A stretch of DNA of 36,732 nt, taken from the IMG/VR virus record IMGVR_UViG_3300009034_000121, positions 1 through 36,732 of that record; one strand, 5' to 3'. The stretch's first letter is position 1, and each line of letters opens with the position of its first letter. The DNA comes from a virus. The translations under genes were made by a program, and so were the position numbers. Shown here piece after piece: positions 4,174 to 34,167 of the stretch. Under the pieces are notes generated by a model. It made no database searches, was not told the DNA's origin, and saw only the letters and a program-made list of their open reading frames with translations.

Positions 4174-7100
4174 ATGCCACTCGTAGAAATACAGGAACTG
4201 GGCGTCTCTCTTGAGTTTCCTGAAGGAACTCCGGATGAGGTAATCGATCAAGCTGTCCAAGAGCAGCTAGGCCAAGAAACTGGTGGAGCAGTACAATATG
4301 CCGGGACATTAGGCGTTGATGTTGGTAAAACCATCGTCAGTGGTTTTGCTCGCAGTCATCTGAATACTTTGCTCGGATTCGAGGAGCATCGCAATGTCCG
4401 TGCGGAAACAGAAACTCCAAGTTTCCATCGTACACCTAGTCCTCATACTCGCTTCCACATGAAAGAATGGTCCGAAGCTCAGCGGGAAATGGGTCGTCCC
4501 CTTGATGATCAGGCATGGAAAGAAGAATTGATCAGGTTCCAGGAACAACGTCAGAATGAATTCATTGGCAAACTTAAAAACACTATTGCCAAGGTTCCTG
4601 AGAGACCAAAACGCGAGGACTTCTTTGGACAGGCCGTCGCTGGTGCCGCCGAGTTTCTGCCTGAGATGGGCATCACTATGGTTAATCCTCTGGCTGGTGT
4701 TGTCGCTACATTCTCTCATCTATTCGGTTCGTCCTATGAAGAGTACATTGAGCAAGGAGTGGACAAAGACCGTGCCTTCGAGGCCGCCATGATTTCTGCT
4801 ACTACTCAGCTGCCCATCGAGTTTCTCGGTAACCTTACCCAGTTGGGATTCTTCACCAAACTGGTTGGCAAATTTTCTAAGTTCGGTATTAAGAAACAAG
4901 TTGTATCTCGCGCACAGGACTTCATCAAGAACCTCATCAAGTCTTCCGCCGTGGAAGCAGTAGAAGAGTCCATGCAAACTGTCCCTGAAGAGATCGCGCA
5001 CACGTATGCCGCTAACCCTCAGATGTCCACTGAAGAGATCCTAGACGACGTCTGGAAACACAAAAGAGACTTGGCAGCAAAGATGGTACGCGGAGGCGCT
5101 GCTGGATTCGTTGGCTCTGGCGTTTTGTTCGGTGCTGCTGGCACTATACAGGCTCCATTCAGCCAGATGGCTTATAGCCGCGACAAAAAGCGCATAGACG
5201 AAATGCTCAGTGCAGTAGAAACTGATACTCCGGGCGTTGTTGAGGACGGCATAAAGTCCGGATTCTTGGATCCTGGAGACGTTGAAGCTGTTAAGGAAGT
5301 CGTGGCTGATGTACTTCCTCCTGACAGAGCCACTCCTGTCATAGCAAAGATCGAGGAACATGAAAAACTGTTCGGGGTTGAGCCTGAGATGGAAGAGGTT
5401 GTGGAGGAGGCCCGTATTGAAGAAGTAGCTGAGCGTGTTCCACCTAAAGAAGTTCCTCCTGAAGCAGTCCCGGCAGTAACTCCGGAACGCAAGAAAGTCC
5501 TAGAGAAGATCTTGGAGAAACCAGAAGTTCCTCCTGTTGAGAAACCACCTGTTGCGCCGCCTGTTGAAAAGGTCCCTGTGGTTGAGAAGCCTCCTGTTCC
5601 TGAAGTACCCACCGAACCAGCTGTTACAAGAGAGCAGGTTGAGAAGACTCCCAGTCTCGCGGCCTATGTAATAAAGAGACCTGAGATCCATGCTCCAGAA
5701 GCAGTAGAGGCTGCAAAGAAAATCCATAAAGAACCTGTTCGCAAGGCAATTAAGAAAGAAGCCCAGCTGGAACTTGATTTCTATTCTCCCAAGACGCAGA
5801 AGTTGAGTATGAAGGCCTTGCCTAAACTGAAGCAGACTAAACCCACCAAAGGAACTACGAAGGGAACAGTTGGCAATAAATTCATCATCACTGCTGACGG
5901 CACACGGTATGAGACTAAAGGCAAACTGCATTCTGATATCCTGGATGCGTTTCCTGAAGTCGATCCTAATACCATCGTTAGCACTGGAATAGTCGGTCCT
6001 AAAAAGGAAGACACTGCTCTCAGTCTCAATGCCATTTACCATCTTAGTAATAATCAGATGGCTAACCTCCAGGCCACAGCCAAAGCTATTAAGTCTATTT
6101 GGGCAAAGCGCGGTGCCCCAAAAGAAGTCTTGGATGCTATTGACGTGCAGATCACTCCTTGGGTTGAGATCGATCCTGAACTGGCACGAGCAAGTTTAGA
6201 ACAATGGGAGAAGCGCGGGTATGATGTGAAAGACCCGACCATGATGGCTATACCCGGTGCGATCACTTTTCTCCAGGGTGGACGAGCTACAGTACAACTT
6301 TCTATGTACCATCCGACCTTTGAAGCTCTGACTCGTACTTCCTTCCACGAACTGTATGAATTCTATCGTGGTAGTGGTTATATTGCCAAGGGAGACCTAA
6401 AAGTCCTGGATCGTCACTTTACTACTGTTGAAGAAGAAGGTGACGCTTTCGCCGAACTGGCTGTGGACGAGCGGGCTCTGCCTAACCTGCCCGGTCCTGT
6501 AAAACGGATTCTGCTCCGCATGAAGAGATTCCTCCAGGCTTTAAAGAACTGGCTGAAAGGCAAAGGCTGGACCAGACCTGAGGATGTATTCGGTAAGCTA
6601 CTCTCTGGTGGAGTGCTCCCGACAACGATGCGACATGATCTCACTGCTAGGCAAGCCCTGGCATTGAGGGAAGGCGTATTAGAAGGAGGAGTTGAGAGGC
6701 ATATTTTCAAATCGCCGGAACGCGAGTCCCAATGGCGAGAAGCCGAAGACGTGGCCGATCCTGGTTTGTGGGAACGGTTCAAAGGAGGATGGAATACTGC
6801 CGTGGCCAAAGCTACTAGAGAGTTCGAGCATCTGCCACGTAAAGGGCCTGAAGCAACAGAATTCGCCGAACTGCGTGCTTCCCTGTTGAAGCTCGCCAAA
6901 CAGAAAGGTATCGTTACTCCCAAAGCACTTGGCACAATCCGTGATATCACTGCCGACCTGAACGAAGTTGATTACCATAATTTCCGCGACTGGGTTATAC
7001 TGCGAGACCTCAAGGAAGAAGCTGAATATCAAAAAGAGAAGGGTGATAGGGTCAGGTTGGCTGGTGGCATGACTGAAGAGGAAGTAGACTTAGAACTAGC

Positions 7101-10065
7101 CGAAGTGGAAAAGCTGGCAGCTCCTGTTGTCCAAGCAGCCATGAAGAAACGTGATGCTCAATGGAAAAAACTTAGAGGTCAGTATATCCAGGCCATGAAG
7201 AATATTGGCATCAACTTAGAGGAGCGACTCAAACGTCAGCATTACTTCAGGCACGTTGTCCTAGACTATGTGGACGATGCTGGCATCTATGGAACTGGTG
7301 AACGCCTCAAAACTCCTGTTGGCCGTCCCTTCCTCAAGACACGCACCGGATCTCAGGCCATGATCATGACCAACTATCTGAAAGTCGAGCATGAGGTCAT
7401 GTCTCAGTTGCTTTACGATATTGAGATAGCCAATACGATAGATTCTGTGAGACGAAACTATGATGAGCTGGATCTGTTTAGAGTAGAGGCAGCTTCCAGA
7501 AATTATCGTAACGTCATCTCCCTCCTGAATGCTTATGCTCAGGAGATGGATGTTCCTAAAGGTCAGAAACGTCCGACTGGGGAAGAGCTTTATAAAAAGT
7601 TAGGAACCAAAATGGCAATAGGCTTTGATCGCTTGGGTCAACTTGCCGCTGCCGAGCAGCTGCCTCTAGGCCCTAATCTTGAGTATGCTGGACTCGTAAC
7701 AGAACTGGGTAACAACTGGTTGATTAACACTGAGATCAAACAAGAGATGGGCAAAGACTGGACTTCTGATGACCGCGTTCCTCTGAAGGCGCCTTATGAT
7801 TCTCAATTATTGAAACTGTCTAACTACATTCTCAAAGAACGCACAGCTGGTGGTGCAGCCAAAGGAGCAGCCGCTACTATATTTAAAGGTGTATCCGAAC
7901 GAAAAGCCGCCGTCAAAGAAATCCTGGGGCCTGAGTTTGCTACCTGGGAGAAGCTGGTCAGGGCTCATCCTGATTATACTACGTTCCAGCCGGAGCGTGG
8001 CAACATGTTCTACCATGTATACAGCATTCCTGAGACGCTGGTCGAGGACATGATCGCCGAGGGCATGACAGATCTTAAAGTCAAGGAATCTCAAATTCGC
8101 GGTGTCCTTGCGCTCGGCGGTAAGAAACGCACACTGGTTGTTAAGAACGAAGTGGCGGATACATTGAACAGTCTCACCAGACCGAGGGCCAATGCCTGGA
8201 GATTCAATCGCAAAGCCCTGAAGGCCTGGAAGCAGTGGCAGTTGTTGATGCCTCGTCGTGCGATCAAGTATAACTTCCGTAACCTCACTGGTGATATGGA
8301 TGCTGTGTTTGCTGGTAACGTCCGTGGGATCAAAAAGGTCAAACAAGCCACCATTGAGTTGGCTCACGCTGCCATGTTGCAGAGTCCTAACTACGCTAAC
8401 CTCAGCGCAAAAAACAAAGCCCGATTCGAGAGCGTCTTTGGTAAGCCCACTATGACAGAAAACATGAACGACTGGATCGAACTTGGTGGCTACGGCACAT
8501 TGCTTCAAGCACAAGAGATGGATGAGTTTGACAGTTTCATGAGATTCAGCGAAGACATGATTAAATTTTCCGACGTGAAGAGCATGAAGGATGTTACTCT
8601 TAAAGGAGTCAAAAGCATCTACCGAACCATCAGGAAGTACACCGATCTCAGGGAAGCTATACTCAGATATGCCAATTATCTCGACTACTTAGAGCAGATG
8701 CGTGCGGATCCAAAAGGCAAACCTGCGAACTTTGGCGCTTCCAATCCGGAGGAAATCCTTGGCATCGCTGACACCAAGATGCGTGCCTTCTGGCTCTCTA
8801 ACGAGTTGCTCGGTGCTTACGACCGCGTTGGCATCACAGGACAAAACATCCGTGAGCACTGGTTTCCTTTCTGGTCTTGGAAAGAAGTTAACTTCCGTCG
8901 TTATTATCAACTGATGAGAAATGCTTACCAAGACAGGGGACTCATGGGTGGAGTCGCCAGCACAGCGTTAAAGACTGTGGCGATACGCAGTCCTTACATG
9001 GCGTTTCGTATAGGCTCCTTGATGCTCAACGTGTTCTTCCTCACAGCCATGATGAAACTTTGGAATACTACTTTTGATGGGGAAGATGACGAACTGCCTG
9101 AAGGATCCAGAGAGTTGCCTCACATTCTTTTGCCCAACCTCGCTAAACTGGCACAGGGCAAGTGGACTTCCAAAGACGATGATGGCGACATACAATACTT
9201 CAGCCGCTTAGGCGCCATGGGTGATTTGCTAGAATGGATCTCGCTAGACACGTTGGACTCCGATGTTGAAGACATCATTAAGGGACGTAAGACTTTACGT
9301 GAAAAGATGACCGAGATGGCACGAGCCCCGGTCAACATCATCGTGCAGGGTGGTACTCCATTCCTCAAGGTTGGCGCTGAGCTGTTAACTAGACAGGCAA
9401 TGTTCCCCGACGTGTTTAAGCGTCGTGTTATCCGCGACCGCATACGTCATGTCGCTGCTTCTGTTGGTTTGGAGAACGAGTACGATGCGTTGGTGGATGC
9501 TTTTATCCGGCCTATACCTAGCAAAGGTACGCCATTATGGAATTGGCTCAAGAGCACTAAGAAGGCTATGTGGTATGAGGCAGATCCGTTCGAGGCCGCT
9601 TACTTCGACTTCTTGAGTGCCAAGCGTCGGTTCCAAAAGGAGAAAAAAGTGTACGGCGAAGGCTGGTGGCTGACTCCTCGCGGCAAAGTGCTCTACAATG
9701 CGCGGGCTGCCATGCGTCTCAATGATGAGGAGGCCATGTTCTATTACATGGAGAAATACTTCGAGTTAGGTGGCACACAAAAAGGATTAAAGCAGTCTTT
9801 GGCTAATATGGATCCTATGTCAGGACTGCGAGAAGAACACAGGGAGGAGTTCCTCAAATCTCTGACACCTGAGGACCTTGATAAACTGGTCAAGGCTCTT
9901 GTATATTATCAACAGCTGCGAACAGGTGTCAAGGCGCAAGAGATCTGGAACATGTTAGACAGTAAACGGAAATCACCCTCTCCTAGGATACCAAAGTTCG
10001 AGAGCATTGGTAAGTTAGGCGAGATTGCAACTATAACCAAAAAACAAGTTAGAGGAGGTAAGTAA
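4174..10065 (+). CDS. giant multidomain virion-associated protein (large polyvalent-protein type)
   Basis: A 1963-residue protein, the largest in the window. It opens with a short segment typical of phage internal-virion proteins (LEFPEGTPDEVIDQAV, residues ~13-28). Hydrophobic patches lie near residues 165-195 and 305-325, and a Pro/Glu/Val linker spans about 424-488. A metalloprotease-like site (FHELYEFYRGSG) has H725-E726 but glutamate instead of the second histidine of HExxH. The following ~1100 residues are mainly helical, with RNLTGDMDAVFAGN near 1370 and a likely membrane-active helix (IGSLMLNVFFLTAMMKLW) near 1611-1628. Giant proteins built this way are known as large polyvalent proteins and as ejected internal virion proteins of podovirus-like phages. 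I infer it is packaged and delivered into the host with the DNA. Domain assignments need profile searches. Confidence 0.75.
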   Translation: MPLVEIQELGVSLEFPEGTPDEVIDQAVQEQLGQETGGAVQYAGTLGVDVGKTIVSGFARSHLNTLLGFEEHRNVRAETETPSFHRTPSPHTRFHMKEWSEAQREMGRPLDDQAWKEELIRFQEQRQNEFIGKLKNTIAKVPERPKREDFFGQAVAGAAEFLPEMGITMVNPLAGVVATFSHLFGSSYEEYIEQGVDKDRAFEAAMISATTQLPIEFLGNLTQLGFFTKLVGKFSKFGIKKQVVSRAQDFIKNLIKSSAVEAVEESMQTVPEEIAHTYAANPQMSTEEILDDVWKHKRDLAAKMVRGGAAGFVGSGVLFGAAGTIQAPFSQMAYSRDKKRIDEMLSAVETDTPGVVEDGIKSGFLDPGDVEAVKEVVADVLPPDRATPVIAKIEEHEKLFGVEPEMEEVVEEARIEEVAERVPPKEVPPEAVPAVTPERKKVLEKILEKPEVPPVEKPPVAPPVEKVPVVEKPPVPEVPTEPAVTREQVEKTPSLAAYVIKRPEIHAPEAVEAAKKIHKEPVRKAIKKEAQLELDFYSPKTQKLSMKALPKLKQTKPTKGTTKGTVGNKFIITADGTRYETKGKLHSDILDAFPEVDPNTIVSTGIVGPKKEDTALSLNAIYHLSNNQMANLQATAKAIKSIWAKRGAPKEVLDAIDVQITPWVEIDPELARASLEQWEKRGYDVKDPTMMAIPGAITFLQGGRATVQLSMYHPTFEALTRTSFHELYEFYRGSGYIAKGDLKVLDRHFTTVEEEGDAFAELAVDERALPNLPGPVKRILLRMKRFLQALKNWLKGKGWTRPEDVFGKLLSGGVLPTTMRHDLTARQALALREGVLEGGVERHIFKSPERESQWREAEDVADPGLWERFKGGWNTAVAKATREFEHLPRKGPEATEFAELRASLLKLAKQKGIVTPKALGTIRDITADLNEVDYHNFRDWVILRDLKEEAEYQKEKGDRVRLAGGMTEEEVDLELAEVEKLAAPVVQAAMKKRDAQWKKLRGQYIQAMKNIGINLEERLKRQHYFRHVVLDYVDDAGIYGTGERLKTPVGRPFLKTRTGSQAMIMTNYLKVEHEVMSQLLYDIEIANTIDSVRRNYDELDLFRVEAASRNYRNVISLLNAYAQEMDVPKGQKRPTGEELYKKLGTKMAIGFDRLGQLAAAEQLPLGPNLEYAGLVTELGNNWLINTEIKQEMGKDWTSDDRVPLKAPYDSQLLKLSNYILKERTAGGAAKGAAATIFKGVSERKAAVKEILGPEFATWEKLVRAHPDYTTFQPERGNMFYHVYSIPETLVEDMIAEGMTDLKVKESQIRGVLALGGKKRTLVVKNEVADTLNSLTRPRANAWRFNRKALKAWKQWQLLMPRRAIKYNFRNLTGDMDAVFAGNVRGIKKVKQATIELAHAAMLQSPNYANLSAKNKARFESVFGKPTMTENMNDWIELGGYGTLLQAQEMDEFDSFMRFSEDMIKFSDVKSMKDVTLKGVKSIYRTIRKYTDLREAILRYANYLDYLEQMRADPKGKPANFGASNPEEILGIADTKMRAFWLSNELLGAYDRVGITGQNIREHWFPFWSWKEVNFRRYYQLMRNAYQDRGLMGGVASTALKTVAIRSPYMAFRIGSLMLNVFFLTAMMKLWNTTFDGEDDELPEGSRELPHILLPNLAKLAQGKWTSKDDDGDIQYFSRLGAMGDLLEWISLDTLDSDVEDIIKGRKTLREKMTEMARAPVNIIVQGGTPFLKVGAELLTRQAMFPDVFKRRVIRDRIRHVAASVGLENEYDALVDAFIRPIPSKGTPLWNWLKSTKKAMWYEADPFEAAYFDFLSAKRRFQKEKKVYGEGWWLTPRGKVLYNARAAMRLNDEEAMFYYMEKYFELGGTQKGLKQSLANMDPMSGLREEHREEFLKSLTPEDLDKLVKALVYYQQLRTGVKAQEIWNMLDSKRKSPSPRIPKFESIGKLGEIATITKKQVRGGK

Positions 10066-21471: not shown

Positions 21472-22224
21472 ATGGCAAAGAAAGCAAAAGCAAGTTTTAA
21501 TCCTGAGAAGATGGCCAGTGGTGGCGGCTTCTGGGATGACGCCAGTGTCAAATTCACCAAATCCAAATTCGTGATGTTTGACTACGGCGGACAGCAACCC
21601 GAAGCCCCATTCTTCGAGGCCACTTTGGAAGATCTGGACGGCGCCATTGAAACAAGTGCGCAAAGATGGAAAGTCGGTGGCACACCGGAAGACTGGGAGA
21701 TCGGAGAGGATGGCGATACCCTCGTACCTATCAGCAAGAAGGCAAAGAAGGGAATCAATCTCAACTCCAACTTCGGTCAGTTTTGTACGTCCCTGGTCAA
21801 TGCCGGATTCGACACTGAAGTCCTGGACGAAAGCCTTGCCAGTAACTTTGATGGCATGGAAGCTCGCTTGATCCGTGTGGAGAGCAAAGTGGATGTGAAG
21901 GACGAGGAGACAGGCAAGAAAAAGAAACTGGACGTCCTTATCGTTGATGAGCTTCTTGGCGACGAAGGAAAGGCAGCGGCCAAGAAAAAAGGCGGCGACG
22001 ACAGCGACGATGCAGATGCCGACGCTGAAGCCATTAAGTTCTTGTTAAAGGTCCTCAAGGACAAAGAAGGCGAAGTCACCAAGAAATCCCTACCTCGGAT
22101 TGCTATGAACGAGATCAAAGACGACGATACCCGTAACGACGTGTTAGAGCTGGTCTTTGACGACGAGTGGTTGAAGTCACGAGATGAGTTCAGCTACAAA
22201 GGTGGCGTCATAACGGCGAAGTAG
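21472..22224 (+). CDS. putative single-stranded DNA-binding protein
   Basis: A 250-residue acidic, lysine-rich protein directly downstream of P2, with AGGAGG 7-8 nt before the ATG. The core (residues ~15-150) looks beta-rich with a strand pattern like an OB-fold, and contains INLNSNFGQFCTSLVNAGFD, a segment I associate with phage SSB-like proteins that accompany RecA-fold ATPases. An acidic low-complexity tract (GGDDSDDADADAEA, ~176-190) and a helical C-terminus follow. A strong private promoter and terminator fit a protein needed in large amounts. It is not a canonical bacterial Ssb, and the assignment rests on context, composition and a weak resemblance. Confidence 0.6.
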   Translation: MAKKAKASFNPEKMASGGGFWDDASVKFTKSKFVMFDYGGQQPEAPFFEATLEDLDGAIETSAQRWKVGGTPEDWEIGEDGDTLVPISKKAKKGINLNSNFGQFCTSLVNAGFDTEVLDESLASNFDGMEARLIRVESKVDVKDEETGKKKKLDVLIVDELLGDEGKAAAKKKGGDDSDDADADAEAIKFLLKVLKDKEGEVTKKSLPRIAMNEIKDDDTRNDVLELVFDDEWLKSRDEFSYKGGVITAK

Positions 22225-22260
22225 TTCTTCGATCCCAAGGGCACTGCGCCTCCTGCCCCA

Positions 22261-22302
22261 GGGTGGCTGGGTTTCTCCTCTCTTTTCCTAGCCACCCTTT
22301 TT
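22261..22302 (+). terminator. intrinsic terminator after SSB-like gene
   Basis: An 11-bp stem, GGGTGGCTGGG (22261-22271) with CCTAGCCACCC (22287-22297), contains one G-U pair and a 15-nt loop and is followed by TTTTT (22298-22302). This is a strong rho-independent terminator. It ends only 5 nt before the tmRNA-like RNA, so that RNA depends on readthrough or processing unless an unseen promoter exists. Confidence 0.9.
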
Positions 22303-22307
22303 CTGAC

Positions 22308-22390
22308 GGGGGTGGATGGGTTCGACGGATTGGTAAACCTATCATGGCCCATTTCCGGACCCGGAGTTCGACTCTCCGGCACCTCCACCA
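22308..22390 (+). ncRNA. tmRNA-like RNA lacking mRNA domain (83 nt)
   Basis: A 7-bp acceptor stem pairs GGGGGTG (22308-22314) with CACCTCC (22380-22386), including a G-U at the third pair, which is the alanine identity position. A discriminator A (22387) and encoded CCA (22388-22390) follow. The T arm is CCGGAG/CTCCGG (22361-22366 with 22374-22379) around the loop TTCGACT. The 5' part (GGGTTCGACGGATTGG, 22318-22333) and the 3' part (ATTTCCGGAC before the T arm) match the conserved ends of one-piece tmRNA. No 5-bp/7-nt anticodon arm can be drawn, so it is not a normal tRNA. Between the ends there is only a short hairpin (22328-22343, loop TAAA) inside ATGGG/CCCAT (22316-22320 with 22348-22352); no tag reading frame exists. 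It may be a tag-less tmRNA mimic or a remnant. Confidence 0.7.
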
Positions 22391-22403: not shown

Positions 22404-22568
22404 ATGCGATTAGAAATCAAACATCTTAGCACGCAACATATGTGGGAATGGGTAAATTCCCCTAACCCGCGTGTTAAGAACAATATCGAGATGTCTCTTT
22501 CTAATGCTCTCGACTGTAAGATAGTGCCTGATGACGACGGCGTATATCTGCTTATCTTGCACAAATAA
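22404..22568 (+). CDS. small protein after tmRNA-like RNA
   Basis: A 54-residue protein whose ATG at 22404 follows the encoded CCA of the RNA by 13 nt, with GAGGAGAAAGG as ribosome site. A longer frame opening at 22263 is rejected because it would run through the terminator and the RNA. The product is compact alpha/beta (MRLEIKHLSTQHMWEWVNSP) with one cysteine. It ends 2 nt before the next gene. Family not recognised. Its tight link to the RNA makes it a candidate partner or a simply co-transcribed gene. Confidence 0.6.
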   Translation: MRLEIKHLSTQHMWEWVNSPNPRVKNNIEMSLSNALDCKIVPDDDGVYLLILHK

Positions 22569-29951: not shown

Positions 29952-30247
29952 GCAAAACACTCTGCATAGGTGGCCCATTGGATGGTAAAAGAGTTGAACG
30001 ACGACAGGATAATCTCATGTTTATCCATAGAGAACTAGAACAGGAAATGGAGCACCATCCTTCTCTCGGTTTTCCAATGTTCTCCGTGAAAGAAGTGGAT
30101 TACATCTACCACAAAGAGATGATCCAAGGACAATACAAACGATTTTTCCTTTATGTGCTGGATTCCATCACCATCGACGACATGATCTCTCTTCTAATAG
30201 ATCGGTATGAATTAGATTCTATCTTGAAAGACACGAATGAAGCATAA
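29948..30247 (+). CDS. small protein with GGPLDG motif
   Basis: A 99-residue protein from ATG 29948 (CTATGA junction). TLCIGGPLDGKRVE at the N-terminus is a motif common in short phage proteins of unknown function, followed by a strand-rich middle (YIYHKEMIQGQYKRFFLYVL) and a helical acidic end. It overlaps the polymerase gene by 11 nt and is therefore probably translated with it. A replisome accessory role is possible but unsupported. Confidence 0.6.
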   Translation: MSKTLCIGGPLDGKRVERRQDNLMFIHRELEQEMEHHPSLGFPMFSVKEVDYIYHKEMIQGQYKRFFLYVLDSITIDDMISLLIDRYELDSILKDTNEA

Positions 30248-32840
30248 GCTCGCTCCAGATTGCATCAACTGTGACCTCCGCGAGACCTGCAAACAGGTAG
30301 TGTGGGGCAATGGACCTGAAGATCCTTCTGCTGCGGAGTGGATGCTCATAGCCGAGGCTCCTGGACACAACGAAGACTTTCAAGGCGTCCCTCTCGTAGG
30401 GCTCACTGGCGAGGAGACTACGTGGCTTCTGAATCGCATCGGTCTAAAGCGTGCTGAGGGTTACCTAACCAATGTGATCAAGTGCCGACCGCCAGGCAAC
30501 AAGGATCCTAAGCCGGAGCAGATAGCGGCCTGCTCTCCTTGGCTGGAGCAAGAGATCCGGATGGTTCAACCTGAGCTTATCATCCTTATGGGTAGGTTCG
30601 CTACTCACTGGTTCCTGCCCGAATGGAATATGGAGTTATGTCATGGCATACCTTTTCAAGACGAAGTGGGGAGGATCCTTATCCCAACGTATCATGTCGC
30701 GGCAGGCCTTCATCAACCGTCTACGATGCTTGCTATCCAATCCGACTTTAAGGCTATCAAAGACGTCCTTGCAGGAGTCAGACCACCGAGGCATATTGAG
30801 GACCCGTTCAACGGAAAAGAACAATATGAGTCCGTAGGCTCCGTAGGTGATTTAAGATACCTTTTACTTGATTACCATATGATAGGAGTGGACACAGAGG
30901 GCACACCGGAGAAGCCCTGGAGCGTACAATTCTCTCGCAAACCAGGCGAGGCTTTCATCATCAGAGCGCATCAAAAGAATATACTTTATGCCTTCAACGA
31001 CTGGTGCTCAAACCCAGAACATACCACACTCCTACATAATGCTCCCTGGGATATCCCTGTGCTGGAAGCGCTCGGAGTATTCCCGGCCACCGTGGCCGAT
31101 ACCATCAGCATGGCTTATCTACTCCAAGGAGAGCCTTTAGGTCTCAAGCCTCTGTCTTTCCGTCACGCTGGGATGGAGATGAAATCGTACAAGGAAGTTG
31201 TACGTGAGAGTACAAGACTTAAAGCCCTCAAATATCTCGCAGAAGCAGTGGAGTATGACTGGCCCGACCCAAAACCTGTTCTTGAATGGCCTAAAGGAAA
31301 ACCAAAGATTCGTCATCCACAAAACCCCTCGAAGAGGATATACAATATTCTCAGAGATTCAACGCTTAAAGATGCTGACCCGTATGATCGTTGGTATAAG
31401 ATCAAGCCGGAAGAAGGAAGAGATTATACTGAGCGGTGTATAGGCGTGATGGAGATGGGGACGCTGGATGACGTAGACCCGGCGACGGCCACCTTCTATG
31501 CGTGTCGTGACGCTGATGCTACTCTGAGGATTGAAGGGGAACTATTACCCCGTATAGTTCAGGACGGTCTACACGACACCTTTTTGATAGACATGGGTGT
31601 TATCCCCATGGCCGTCGATATGATGCGTAATGGAATCAAAGTGGACATACCCTATCTGGAGTCACTGTCCGACTATTTCGATAAGCGTTTGGAGTCGATT
31701 GATGCGCAGGTCACGCGCCTGACTGAGAAAACGATAAATATAAACGCTCACGATCAGGTCGCTGACTTGTTGTTTAATCACCTTCAGTTGACCCCGCTGA
31801 AGAAAACCAAAGGCAAGACTGGTTGGAGCACCGCTGAGGAAGTCCTATCTCGTATGGTGGATGAGCATGACGTTGTGCAGCTTATCCGGGATTACAGAGA
31901 GTTGGCCAAACTCAAGGGAACATATTCCGATCAGATCCCAAGGTATGCCAGGGAGGGTGACGGCAGGGTCAGAGGCAACATCCGTCTCACCCGCACTGCC
32001 ACCGGACGACTGTCCTGGGCGGACCCCAATCTGCAAAACATTCCTATCCGTTCGGAGGAAGGGCGAAAAATCAGAAAGGGCTTTCTCGCGGAGGATGGTT
32101 GCTCCCTGGTTTCTTCAGATTATTCCCAAATTGAGCTACGGATGATGGCACATGTCAGTAATGATCAGCTCATGATTGAAACATTTAACAACAATGAGGA
32201 CATTCATGCCAAGACCGCCAGCGAAATGTTCGGCATACCGGAGTCGCGGCTCAACAAAATGCAGCACCGCTATCCGGCTAAACGTACTAACTTTGGGATA
32301 CCTTACGACATCACTGCAAAAGGTTTGTACCGAGACTTTGTTATTGCGGGGTGTAAAGGGTGGACCGTTCCGAAGTGTCAGGAGTTTATCAATGAATGGT
32401 TTAGACTTTACAAAGGCGTGGCGAAGTGGAAAAAAGAAACTGTTCTTTTTGCTCGTCGTCATGGTTACGTTGTTGATATGTTTGGTCGAAGGCGTTACAC
32501 TCCTGCTGTCCGCTGTAAAACGAAATATCTCCAAGAAAAAGCTCTACGAGAAGCTGGAAATCATCCTATCCAAGCTGGAGCCCAAGGAGTGATCAAAACT
32601 GCGATGGGCAAACTGTGGCCTGTGATCCAGGACTGGCGCAAAGAAGACCGCATTGTCCGGCCACTCATTCAGATTCACGACGACCTGGTAGACGAGATAG
32701 CCAACAAAGACATGGCCGTTGTTCTACCCATAAAGAAAAAGATTATGGAGGATGCAGTCACGTTGAGGATACCAACCCCGGTGGACCAACAGTTCGGTAA
32801 CCGCTGGGAGCCTATGTACCCATGGAAAGAGGCAGCTTAA
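30237..32840 (+). CDS. UDG/exonuclease/DNA polymerase A fusion
   Basis: An 867-residue protein with three parts. Residues ~1-185 form a family-4-like uracil-DNA glycosylase: iron-sulfur cysteines C9, C12, C83 and C99, motif AEAPGHNED (39-47) and a late H153 (YHVAAGLH). Residues ~210-430 form a DnaQ-like 3'-5' exonuclease with DTE (219-221), HNAPWD (D272) and YACRD (Y421, D425). Residues ~450-867 form a family A polymerase: motif A SSDYSQIELR (D628), O-helix RYPAKRTNFG (F686) and motif C HDDLVDE (D815, D816). All key residues seem present, so it should synthesise DNA with proofreading and possibly excise uracil. SPO1-type phages carry a comparable glycosylase-polymerase fusion. It is the replicative polymerase of this phage. 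Confidence 0.9.
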   Translation: MKHKLAPDCINCDLRETCKQVVWGNGPEDPSAAEWMLIAEAPGHNEDFQGVPLVGLTGEETTWLLNRIGLKRAEGYLTNVIKCRPPGNKDPKPEQIAACSPWLEQEIRMVQPELIILMGRFATHWFLPEWNMELCHGIPFQDEVGRILIPTYHVAAGLHQPSTMLAIQSDFKAIKDVLAGVRPPRHIEDPFNGKEQYESVGSVGDLRYLLLDYHMIGVDTEGTPEKPWSVQFSRKPGEAFIIRAHQKNILYAFNDWCSNPEHTTLLHNAPWDIPVLEALGVFPATVADTISMAYLLQGEPLGLKPLSFRHAGMEMKSYKEVVRESTRLKALKYLAEAVEYDWPDPKPVLEWPKGKPKIRHPQNPSKRIYNILRDSTLKDADPYDRWYKIKPEEGRDYTERCIGVMEMGTLDDVDPATATFYACRDADATLRIEGELLPRIVQDGLHDTFLIDMGVIPMAVDMMRNGIKVDIPYLESLSDYFDKRLESIDAQVTRLTEKTININAHDQVADLLFNHLQLTPLKKTKGKTGWSTAEEVLSRMVDEHDVVQLIRDYRELAKLKGTYSDQIPRYAREGDGRVRGNIRLTRTATGRLSWADPNLQNIPIRSEEGRKIRKGFLAEDGCSLVSSDYSQIELRMMAHVSNDQLMIETFNNNEDIHAKTASEMFGIPESRLNKMQHRYPAKRTNFGIPYDITAKGLYRDFVIAGCKGWTVPKCQEFINEWFRLYKGVAKWKKETVLFARRHGYVVDMFGRRRYTPAVRCKTKYLQEKALREAGNHPIQAGAQGVIKTAMGKLWPVIQDWRKEDRIVRPLIQIHDDLVDEIANKDMAVVLPIKKKIMEDAVTLRIPTPVDQQFGNRWEPMYPWKEAA

Positions 32841-32916: not shown

Positions 32917-34167
32917 ATGGATCGCAAACAACGATACAGAGAACGACACAAGAAATTAGGGCTATGTGTGAACTGCTCGCGTGAAGCCGAACCAGGAAAA
33001 ACTCGCTGTGCGGTTTGCAACAAAAAACATAACTCTTATAGGAAGAATAAATCCTCAGGGACACAGGAAGTGCATCAAGAATTTGCTGGGAATGATCTGG
33101 TCTTAACCACAGATTCAACTCGTATTCGGTCTCCTGAAGAGGCACTTGCTAAGGCCCAGGTTGATACAAACAAATGGGAAGTGGTGCGTCAAACTGTAAG
33201 CACCAAAGAAATGAAGAATCACACCAGGTTTAATATTACCGTATACCTTAAACCGCGAGTGCCAGATCCAATGGAGACTGTGATTCGTGGGTTGATCAAA
33301 CGAGTACCTGCTTGGGTCCCGCCGGAACTTGAGCCATCTGCTCCAGAAGATACTGATTTTGCTATGGAAATGGCCCTTTACGACGCTCACTTTGGCAAGT
33401 TGGCATGGGGCAAGGAAACAGAGCAAGGATCCTACGATATGGAGATCGCGGCTCACACCTTCATTACAGCTGCTCGCAAGAACCTAGACTTTTGCAGTCC
33501 GTGGAACATATCAAAGATCTTTTTCCCATTCGGTCAGGACTATCTACACATTGAGAACTACCAGGGCACTACACCTCTGGGGAAGCATATGCTTGATGTG
33601 GACACCCGGCTGCCTAAGATCCTGCTCACTGCTATTGAGGCCATGTTCGACGTGGTTAAGTTGTGCCGTGATGTGGCTCCTGTGGAAATCCTTTGGGTGC
33701 CAGGCAACCATGACATGCACTCCTCGTTTTATTTAAGCGAGATCATCAAACAACGCTTCCGGGAAGACGACCGCGTGATCGTGGATAATACTCCGCCATG
33801 GCGAAAGGCTCGACTCTGGGGCAATTTGCTTGTTGGCTTTACCCATGACGCTAATATTCGACAGACCAACGTCGTTAACATGTTGCCCCAATTCTTCCCG
33901 GAACTATGGGGCCAAAGCAAATACCGCGAATGGCACACGGGCCACAAGCATACCAAGAAGGAATGGAAGTACATGCCCACTACGTCAGCTGGTGGCACAG
34001 TTATCAGACAGATCCCAACTCTTTCCCCAATAGACGCCTGGCATTATCAAGAGGGATTCGTTGATGCGATCCCGGCGGGCGAGTCTTTTATATGGAGCAA
34101 ACACAATGGAGTTATCGCACATTTTACAGCTTATTGTGGCAGCCACACAAAAGGTGCAGTGGTCTAA
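32917..34167 (+). CDS. zinc-finger metallophosphoesterase
   Basis: A 416-residue protein. The N-terminal ~40 residues hold a zinc site (CVNC, C17/C20; CAVC, C31/C34) with basic flanks (MDRKQRYRERHKKLG), and residues ~150-416 a calcineurin-like phosphoesterase: DAHFG (D156, H158), GQDYLH (D208), GNHD (263-266), THD (H310) and GHKH (343-345). Such enzymes act as nucleases or phosphatases (SbcD, Mre11 and related phage proteins). The linker (45-150) is mixed. Proximity to the polymerase suggests a DNA-processing nuclease; the metal-site order is clear, the substrate is not. AAAGGGGAC is the ribosome site. It ends 62 nt inside the next gene. Confidence 0.8.
   Translation: MDRKQRYRERHKKLGLCVNCSREAEPGKTRCAVCNKKHNSYRKNKSSGTQEVHQEFAGNDLVLTTDSTRIRSPEEALAKAQVDTNKWEVVRQTVSTKEMKNHTRFNITVYLKPRVPDPMETVIRGLIKRVPAWVPPELEPSAPEDTDFAMEMALYDAHFGKLAWGKETEQGSYDMEIAAHTFITAARKNLDFCSPWNISKIFFPFGQDYLHIENYQGTTPLGKHMLDVDTRLPKILLTAIEAMFDVVKLCRDVAPVEILWVPGNHDMHSSFYLSEIIKQRFREDDRVIVDNTPPWRKARLWGNLLVGFTHDANIRQTNVVNMLPQFFPELWGQSKYREWHTGHKHTKKEWKYMPTTSAGGTVIRQIPTLSPIDAWHYQEGFVDAIPAGESFIWSKHNGVIAHFTAYCGSHTKGAVV

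Follow-up and report, generated by a model that had tools for sequence, protein, structure and literature searches.

The locus at 22308-22390 of the viral DNA analyzed here (36,732 nucleotides, hereafter the window) raises the question of whether a tmRNA can be reduced to little more than its two ends and, if so, in what way such an RNA might act in infected cells. The preliminary description had proposed that this stretch is a tmRNA tRNA-like domain (TLD) lacking the mRNA domain, and had considered both an effect on host trans-translation and a decayed remnant. The carrier record (G000) is a virus of 36,733 bases, nearly all of which is the window, and contains DNA polymerase and endolysin genes.

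A tmRNA gene reduced to its tRNA-like domain

The gene at this locus specifies a tmRNA stripped down to the tRNA-like domain (Table 1). Using cmscan, the tmRNA model RF00023 was placed exactly on 22308-22390 of the plus strand and scored 54.0 bits (cut-off 47, E = 1.1e-18). The alignment spanned model positions 1-374, with both ends aligned and 303 central positions deleted, which agreed with the proposed loss of the mRNA domain. This was the sole Rfam match in the whole window, and ARAGORN called 0 tRNAs and 0 tmRNAs in the window. A covariance model built from viral homologues with the window left out (R1, see below) also recovered the RNA (52.6 bits, E = 2.8e-13). The acceptor stem with G3-U70, the encoded CCA and the T loop TTCGACT described earlier could all be read in the sequence, and the features of alanine acceptance, namely G3-U70, discriminator A and CCA, are thus present. 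The distance between the two halves needed correction, as 30 nt rather than about 25 lie between the D segment and GGAC. In the RF00023 alignment, a tag reading frame with resume codon and stop was absent from the window RNA.

Two other identities were considered and rejected. An ordinary tRNA would be expected to have a 7-nt anticodon loop and no such loop was found, ARAGORN made no tRNA call, the best match within the clan was tmRNA, and the middle of the related RNAs is a hairpin-capped P2; the earlier statement that an anticodon arm is missing was therefore upheld. A permuted tmRNA has the opposite order of halves, whereas in the window RNA the 5' half precedes the 3' half, and no permuted model matched.

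Table 1. Positions of the RNA gene, its parts and its flanking features in the window
Feature	Position	Strand	Basis
Mini-tmRNA (TLD-only tmRNA-like RNA), whole gene, 83 nt	22308..22390	+	RF00023 and R1
Acceptor stem, 5' strand GGGGGTG, includes G3	22308..22314	+	7/7 pairs with 22380-22386
Stemless D segment GATGGGTTCGAC	22315..22326	+	Corresponds to tmRNA D loop in Rfam alignment
Shortened P2 region with small loop, replacing pseudoknots and tag frame	22327..22356	+	Covariation in relatives
GGAC between P2 and T arm, conserved	22357..22360	+	Rfam alignment
T arm, 6-bp stem CCGGAG/CTCCGG, loop TTCGACT	22361..22379	+	Sequence
Acceptor stem, 3' strand CACCTCC, includes U70	22380..22386	+	Sequence
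Discriminator A and encoded CCA	22387..22390	+	Sequence
Likely terminator of gene 21472-22224, 12-bp hairpin followed by T run	22260..22298	+	Hairpin scan
54-codon ORF, RBS GAGGAGAAAGG directly 3' of CCA	22404..22568	+	Sequence

A conserved and covarying viral family

IMG/VR was searched with a pattern in which a short middle was flanked by the conserved letters of the D segment on one side and those of GGAC and the T loop on the other, the acceptor lying outside the pattern. This pattern gave at least 119 stretches, and a second pattern gave 56, of which 44 were new. R1, which was built from 11 members excluding the window, matched 76 IMG/VR loci in one set, with scores of 39-100 bits, and 36 in a second set, with scores of 47-79 bits; these counts include near-identical contigs. 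The same architecture, that is, a 7-bp acceptor stem, a stemless TTCGAC D segment, a short capped P2, GGAC and a T arm, recurs in at least 112 IMG/VR viral loci besides the window, in ten bacterial contigs and in six sequenced Streptomyces phages. Phage tmRNAs of the full or permuted form, which Rfam names as tmRNA, reached just about 17-30 bits under R1, and therefore this model separates TLD-only RNAs from both. Both arms and the short middle are thus conserved in homologues from more than 100 viral sequences and, because the same short middle recurs in all of these, the family as a whole is not a product of decay; that part of the earlier suggestion of a remnant could be set aside, and the part that concerns the window copy alone is weighed below.

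Among 88 well-scoring sequences, all real members had a 7-bp acceptor stem in which G3-U70 was invariant. It should be noted that G3-U70 received a small bonus when the acceptor register was set; such a bonus is unable to produce 7/7 pairing. The ACCA tail was encoded in 21 of the 88 scored sequences.

The fold was analyzed in two gap-free alignments of members with equal segment lengths (A2, 11 sequences; A3, 12 sequences). Standard pairs occupied 97.5% of pair cells in A2 and 96.4% in A3, and 18 of 22 and 17 of 23 pairs, respectively, changed on both sides. None of 500 shuffles reached the observed values of pairing and compensation, and the paired fraction decreased to 38-51% in a control with slid partners. 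Covariation was observed in the acceptor stem (pairs 4-6 or 4-7), in P2 (7-8 bp), in a 3-bp inner hairpin (whose sequence is often CCGCACGCGG or close to it) and in the T stem, so that the acceptor and T stems have the covariance support that had been proposed as a check. The covarying P2 and inner hairpin indicate that a short capped P2 stands in place of the normal tmRNA middle; the family fold has no anticodon loop.

Distribution and genomic context of TLD-only RNAs

Unannotated copies were found beside tRNA genes in the Streptomyces phages pSt2308 (L152, 88.7 bits) and BRock (L153, 85.3 bits). A further unannotated copy was present in Streptomyces phage Riptide (L289, 65.6 bits), and blastn revealed others in Streptomyces phages LuckySocke, GiJojo and Alone3. 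A stringent pattern applied to 84,980 bacterial and archaeal genomes gave 82 stretches, most of which look like tails of ordinary full tmRNAs. Ten were real members (L162, L172, L186, L187, L190, L196, L202, L212, L217 and L233), and several of these bacterial contigs may represent prophages. Most of the blastn matches checked in sequenced phages other than those of Streptomyces turned out to be ends of ordinary or permuted tmRNAs and were rejected.

An SmpB gene was found in none of 47 carrier records, with bacterial control genomes positive in the same search; thus any SmpB used by these RNAs would be that of the host. ARAGORN tmRNA calls were absent in 57 of the 60 carrier loci scanned. Several members lie inside tRNA arrays (L046, L047, L071, L098, L270 and L273), and others are located after terminators or just upstream of a gene; such varied contexts fit an RNA acting in trans. 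Among the 74 members with enough flank, 15 had an RBS and ORF within 75 nt of the RNA. Hexamers resembling a -10 element occurred 6-11 nt upstream in 10 of 76 members, compared with 0-8 (about 4) at other spacings, which is a weak signal.

In one virus (G003, the L023 virus), a full-length tmRNA at 77588-77979 coexists with a TLD-only RNA at 46486-46567 (L295 and L296). In the searchable literature, which mostly excludes subscription journals, we found no description of such coexistence. The tag that ARAGORN assigned to this full-length tmRNA (SPEYRIRLLTNTKW) is unlike the usual tags. Two differing TLD-only RNAs were observed on each of two contigs (L254, 1566-1637 and 5112-5183; L108, 5-80 and 1317-1391). 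In one viral tRNA array that includes a TLD-only RNA (L271), ARAGORN called a tRNA-Sec at 1069-1165. A match to the Pistol ribozyme (L196, 1621-1716) lies about 2.2 kb from the TLD-only RNA of a Prochlorococcus single-cell contig that may be viral.

Divergence and neighbourhood of the window copy

The window copy differs from its relatives in several respects. Its T stem has 6 bp, compared with 5 bp in the 85 other scored members (86 true members in all), which results in an acceptor/T stack of 13 bp instead of the usual 12 and could disturb the fit to EF-Tu or SmpB. Its P2 is divergent and weak, GGA/UCC plus UGG/CCA being possible in the middle. A competing fold that pairs GAUGGGUU with AACCUAUC was calculated at -31.9 kcal/mol versus -24.9 kcal/mol for the TLD fold (nearest-neighbour energies, no tertiary contacts); such energies do not settle the matter, because the calculation also gives other folds for some strong members. 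The R1 score of 52.6 bits is low compared with up to 99.7 bits in the family. Thus, the activity of the window copy is possibly reduced. On the other hand, two other members (L009 and L065) share the 16-nt core GGTAAACCTATCATGG with the window RNA at the same place. A search with this core gave 33 stretches, of which the only ones within a TLD were those of L009, L065 and the window; the remaining stretches resemble coding sequence.

The terminator-like hairpin upstream ends nine nt before the RNA and was missed by a simple scanner, its loop being 15 nt long. A search for sigma-70-like promoters near 22308-22390 was negative, the 54-codon ORF downstream had no match in Pfam or PHROGs, and no tyrosine integrase was detected in the virus record. 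Neither the upstream 250-aa protein nor the DNA polymerase of the window had relatives in IMG/VR. The exonuclease at 32917-34167 had relatives, and a true TLD-only member was present in 1 of 50 of their records (G043). The presence of the RNA therefore appears patchy and accessory-gene-like, as two proteins have no relatives and those of the third mostly lack the RNA. A candidate in the record with the closest exonuclease (G053) was rejected because it is a tRNA-His. As further observations on this genome, an 867-aa protein (30237-32840) combines a fused uracil-DNA glycosylase domain with a 3'-5' exonuclease and a family A DNA polymerase, and a 1963-aa protein (4174-10065), possibly an internal virion protein, gave just a weak virion RNA polymerase match.

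Possible function and alternative explanations

It has been reported that AlaRS charges tmRNA via G3-U70 and discriminator A, that SmpB binds the elbow formed by the D and T loops, whose mutual contacts are needed, and that P2 (H2) projects away in the manner of a long variable arm (PMC3968760, PMC3985003). The elements for AlaRS, for the SmpB elbow and for P2 are all kept in the TLD-only family. Mycobacterium phage DS6A is described as carrying little more than the TLD of tmRNA (PMC4131195, PMC11915505, citing Mao et al., 2009), and the DS6A-like RNA as strongly inhibiting Escherichia coli tmRNA whether chargeable or not, perhaps through SmpB titration (PMC4131195, PMC11915505).

Our main interpretation, to which we assign a probability of roughly 0.6, is that the TLD-only RNA acts as a decoy towards SmpB and stalled ribosomes and, by way of host SmpB, blocks host trans-translation. 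The window RNA would be trimmed like a tRNA, host AlaRS would add alanine through G3-U70, and host SmpB and EF-Tu would bind the alanylated RNA. Trans-translation could then not be completed, because the pseudoknots and the tag reading frame are absent. For the window RNA we infer transcription, charging, SmpB binding, inhibition and a benefit to the phage, and inhibition of trans-translation would agree, by analogy, with what has been reported for the DS6A-like RNA. The strict G3-U70 gives a hint that charging matters in nature; this would favour an RNA that engages ribosomes, whether it blocks them as a dead end or carries out tag-free rescue. Several observations argue against the decoy: the window copy combines a weak P2, a 6-bp T stem and a more stable competing fold with the lack of a nearby sigma-70-like promoter, and a virus with both a full-length and a TLD-only RNA is not predicted by a simple model in which all trans-translation is blocked.

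Tag-free rescue, which appears rather unlikely, would have alanyl-TLD and host SmpB enter stalled ribosomes and take over the nascent chain, with another factor releasing it and no degradation tag added, so that phage proteins made from damaged mRNAs would be spared; the tag-less mitochondrial tmRNA may work in this manner. The parts needed for A-site entry and peptide acceptance are kept, G3-U70 is invariant and CCA is encoded in some members. For an RNA that merely sequestered SmpB, G3-U70 would be dispensable, yet it never varies in the family, and conservation of the CDS-less mitochondrial tmRNA goes along with that of SmpB (PMC11915505). However, such rescue would require a release route for peptidyl-TLD, and the DS6A-like RNA is reported to be inhibitory even if not chargeable (PMC4131195). 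It is improbable that the window copy is a decaying or inert descendant of a functional TLD-only RNA that is losing its function. Besides the weak P2, the more stable competing fold, the low R1 score and the failure to see a promoter, it is the sole member with a 6-bp T stem among 86 scored; nevertheless, its acceptor (7/7), G3-U70, discriminator A, CCA, T loop, D segment and GGAC are intact, the change in the T stem is an added pair with complementary sides, and its 16-nt core is exactly common to two other members.

Other roles seem still less plausible. Since the alanine identity is invariant, the RNA might serve outside ribosome rescue as an alanine donor or decoy, either in an Ala-tRNA-dependent reaction or against an SmpB-like defence domain of the kind predicted in CoCoNuT restriction systems, where SmpB-like domains occur in RNA-targeting defence (PMC11090510). 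This appears highly improbable, as the tmRNA D segment and GGAC, needless for plain alanine donation, are kept in the relatives, and no link to such an enzyme or defence gene was seen. There is very little to be expected from the reading of the locus as a leader for the next gene, or as a relic of integration, instead of a trans-acting RNA. The downstream RBS abuts CCA and about one-fifth of the members with enough flank have an RBS and ORF nearby, and tmRNA genes are common attachment sites (PMC10865867), but other members lie in tRNA arrays or varied contexts, and an attachment-site copy would retain the 3' part alone. The integration-site relic was rejected, because the two TLD halves have both been retained and show covariation and because no tyrosine integrase is present in the record.

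Returning to the decoy and to the family as a whole, we tentatively suggest, with clearly lower confidence than for the decoy itself, that TLD-only tmRNAs, with their conserved capped P2 and strict alanine identity, are widespread viral regulatory RNAs that act in charged form on ribosomes or SmpB, by block or by tag-free replacement, and that in one virus or more they make up a two-RNA system together with a full tmRNA. More than 100 viral loci, together with the 57 of 60 scanned carriers without an ARAGORN tmRNA, suggest that phages commonly interfere with ribosome rescue by means of an RNA mimic. The strict G3-U70 means that the need for charging can distinguish an SmpB sponge from active tag-free rescue, and the carriers among Streptomyces phages, which can be grown in laboratory strains, make this question practical to address. 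In addition, natural TLD RNAs of 80 nt would provide compact tools for the study of SmpB and AlaRS.

Relation to known tmRNAs

A phage TLD-only tmRNA is already known, from DS6A alone in the searchable literature (subscription journals lie mostly outside it), and what appears to be new is the breadth of the viral family and its conserved, covarying capped P2. As described, the DS6A RNA is likewise phage-encoded, barely more than a TLD and devoid of a tag frame; the window RNA is placed with this kind by description and not by sequence, and its host may differ from that of DS6A. With the one-piece tmRNA (ssrA, RF00023) it shares the acceptor with G3-U70, the stemless D segment, the position of P2, GGAC and the T arm, whereas one-piece tmRNAs, including those of phages PegLeg and Boopy, have about 350-400 nt and the 83-nt window RNA has neither pseudoknots nor tag frame. 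TLDs without a reading frame are also represented by the CDS-less mitochondrial tmRNA (RF02544) and the ∼65-bp plastid tmRNA of Mallomonadaceae (PMC11915505); the mitochondrial genes are usually permuted, in contrast with the window gene, which is viral and has the standard order. The permuted two-piece tmRNAs (RF04321, RF01849-RF01851), which are found in many phages, have the same tRNA-like domain but place the 3' half first and include a coding piece, whereas the window RNA runs from 5' to 3' half within 83 nt.

Permuted tmRNA genes (RF04321) that are unannotated in the stretches examined were also observed (L282, L284, L285, L286, L287, L288, L290, L291 and L293). They belong to Pseudomonas phage SM1, Stenotrophomonas phages IME-SM1 and DLP_6, Xanthomonas phage Rb1, Tunturiibacter phages Tunturi_3, Tunturi_4 and Tunturi_5, Acinetobacter phage BUCT628 and Synechococcus phage S-CRM01. 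In Tunturi_4 (L287, 218-565), a release-factor-like gene with an RF-1 domain adjoins the permuted tmRNA, possibly placing two ribosome-rescue functions side by side.
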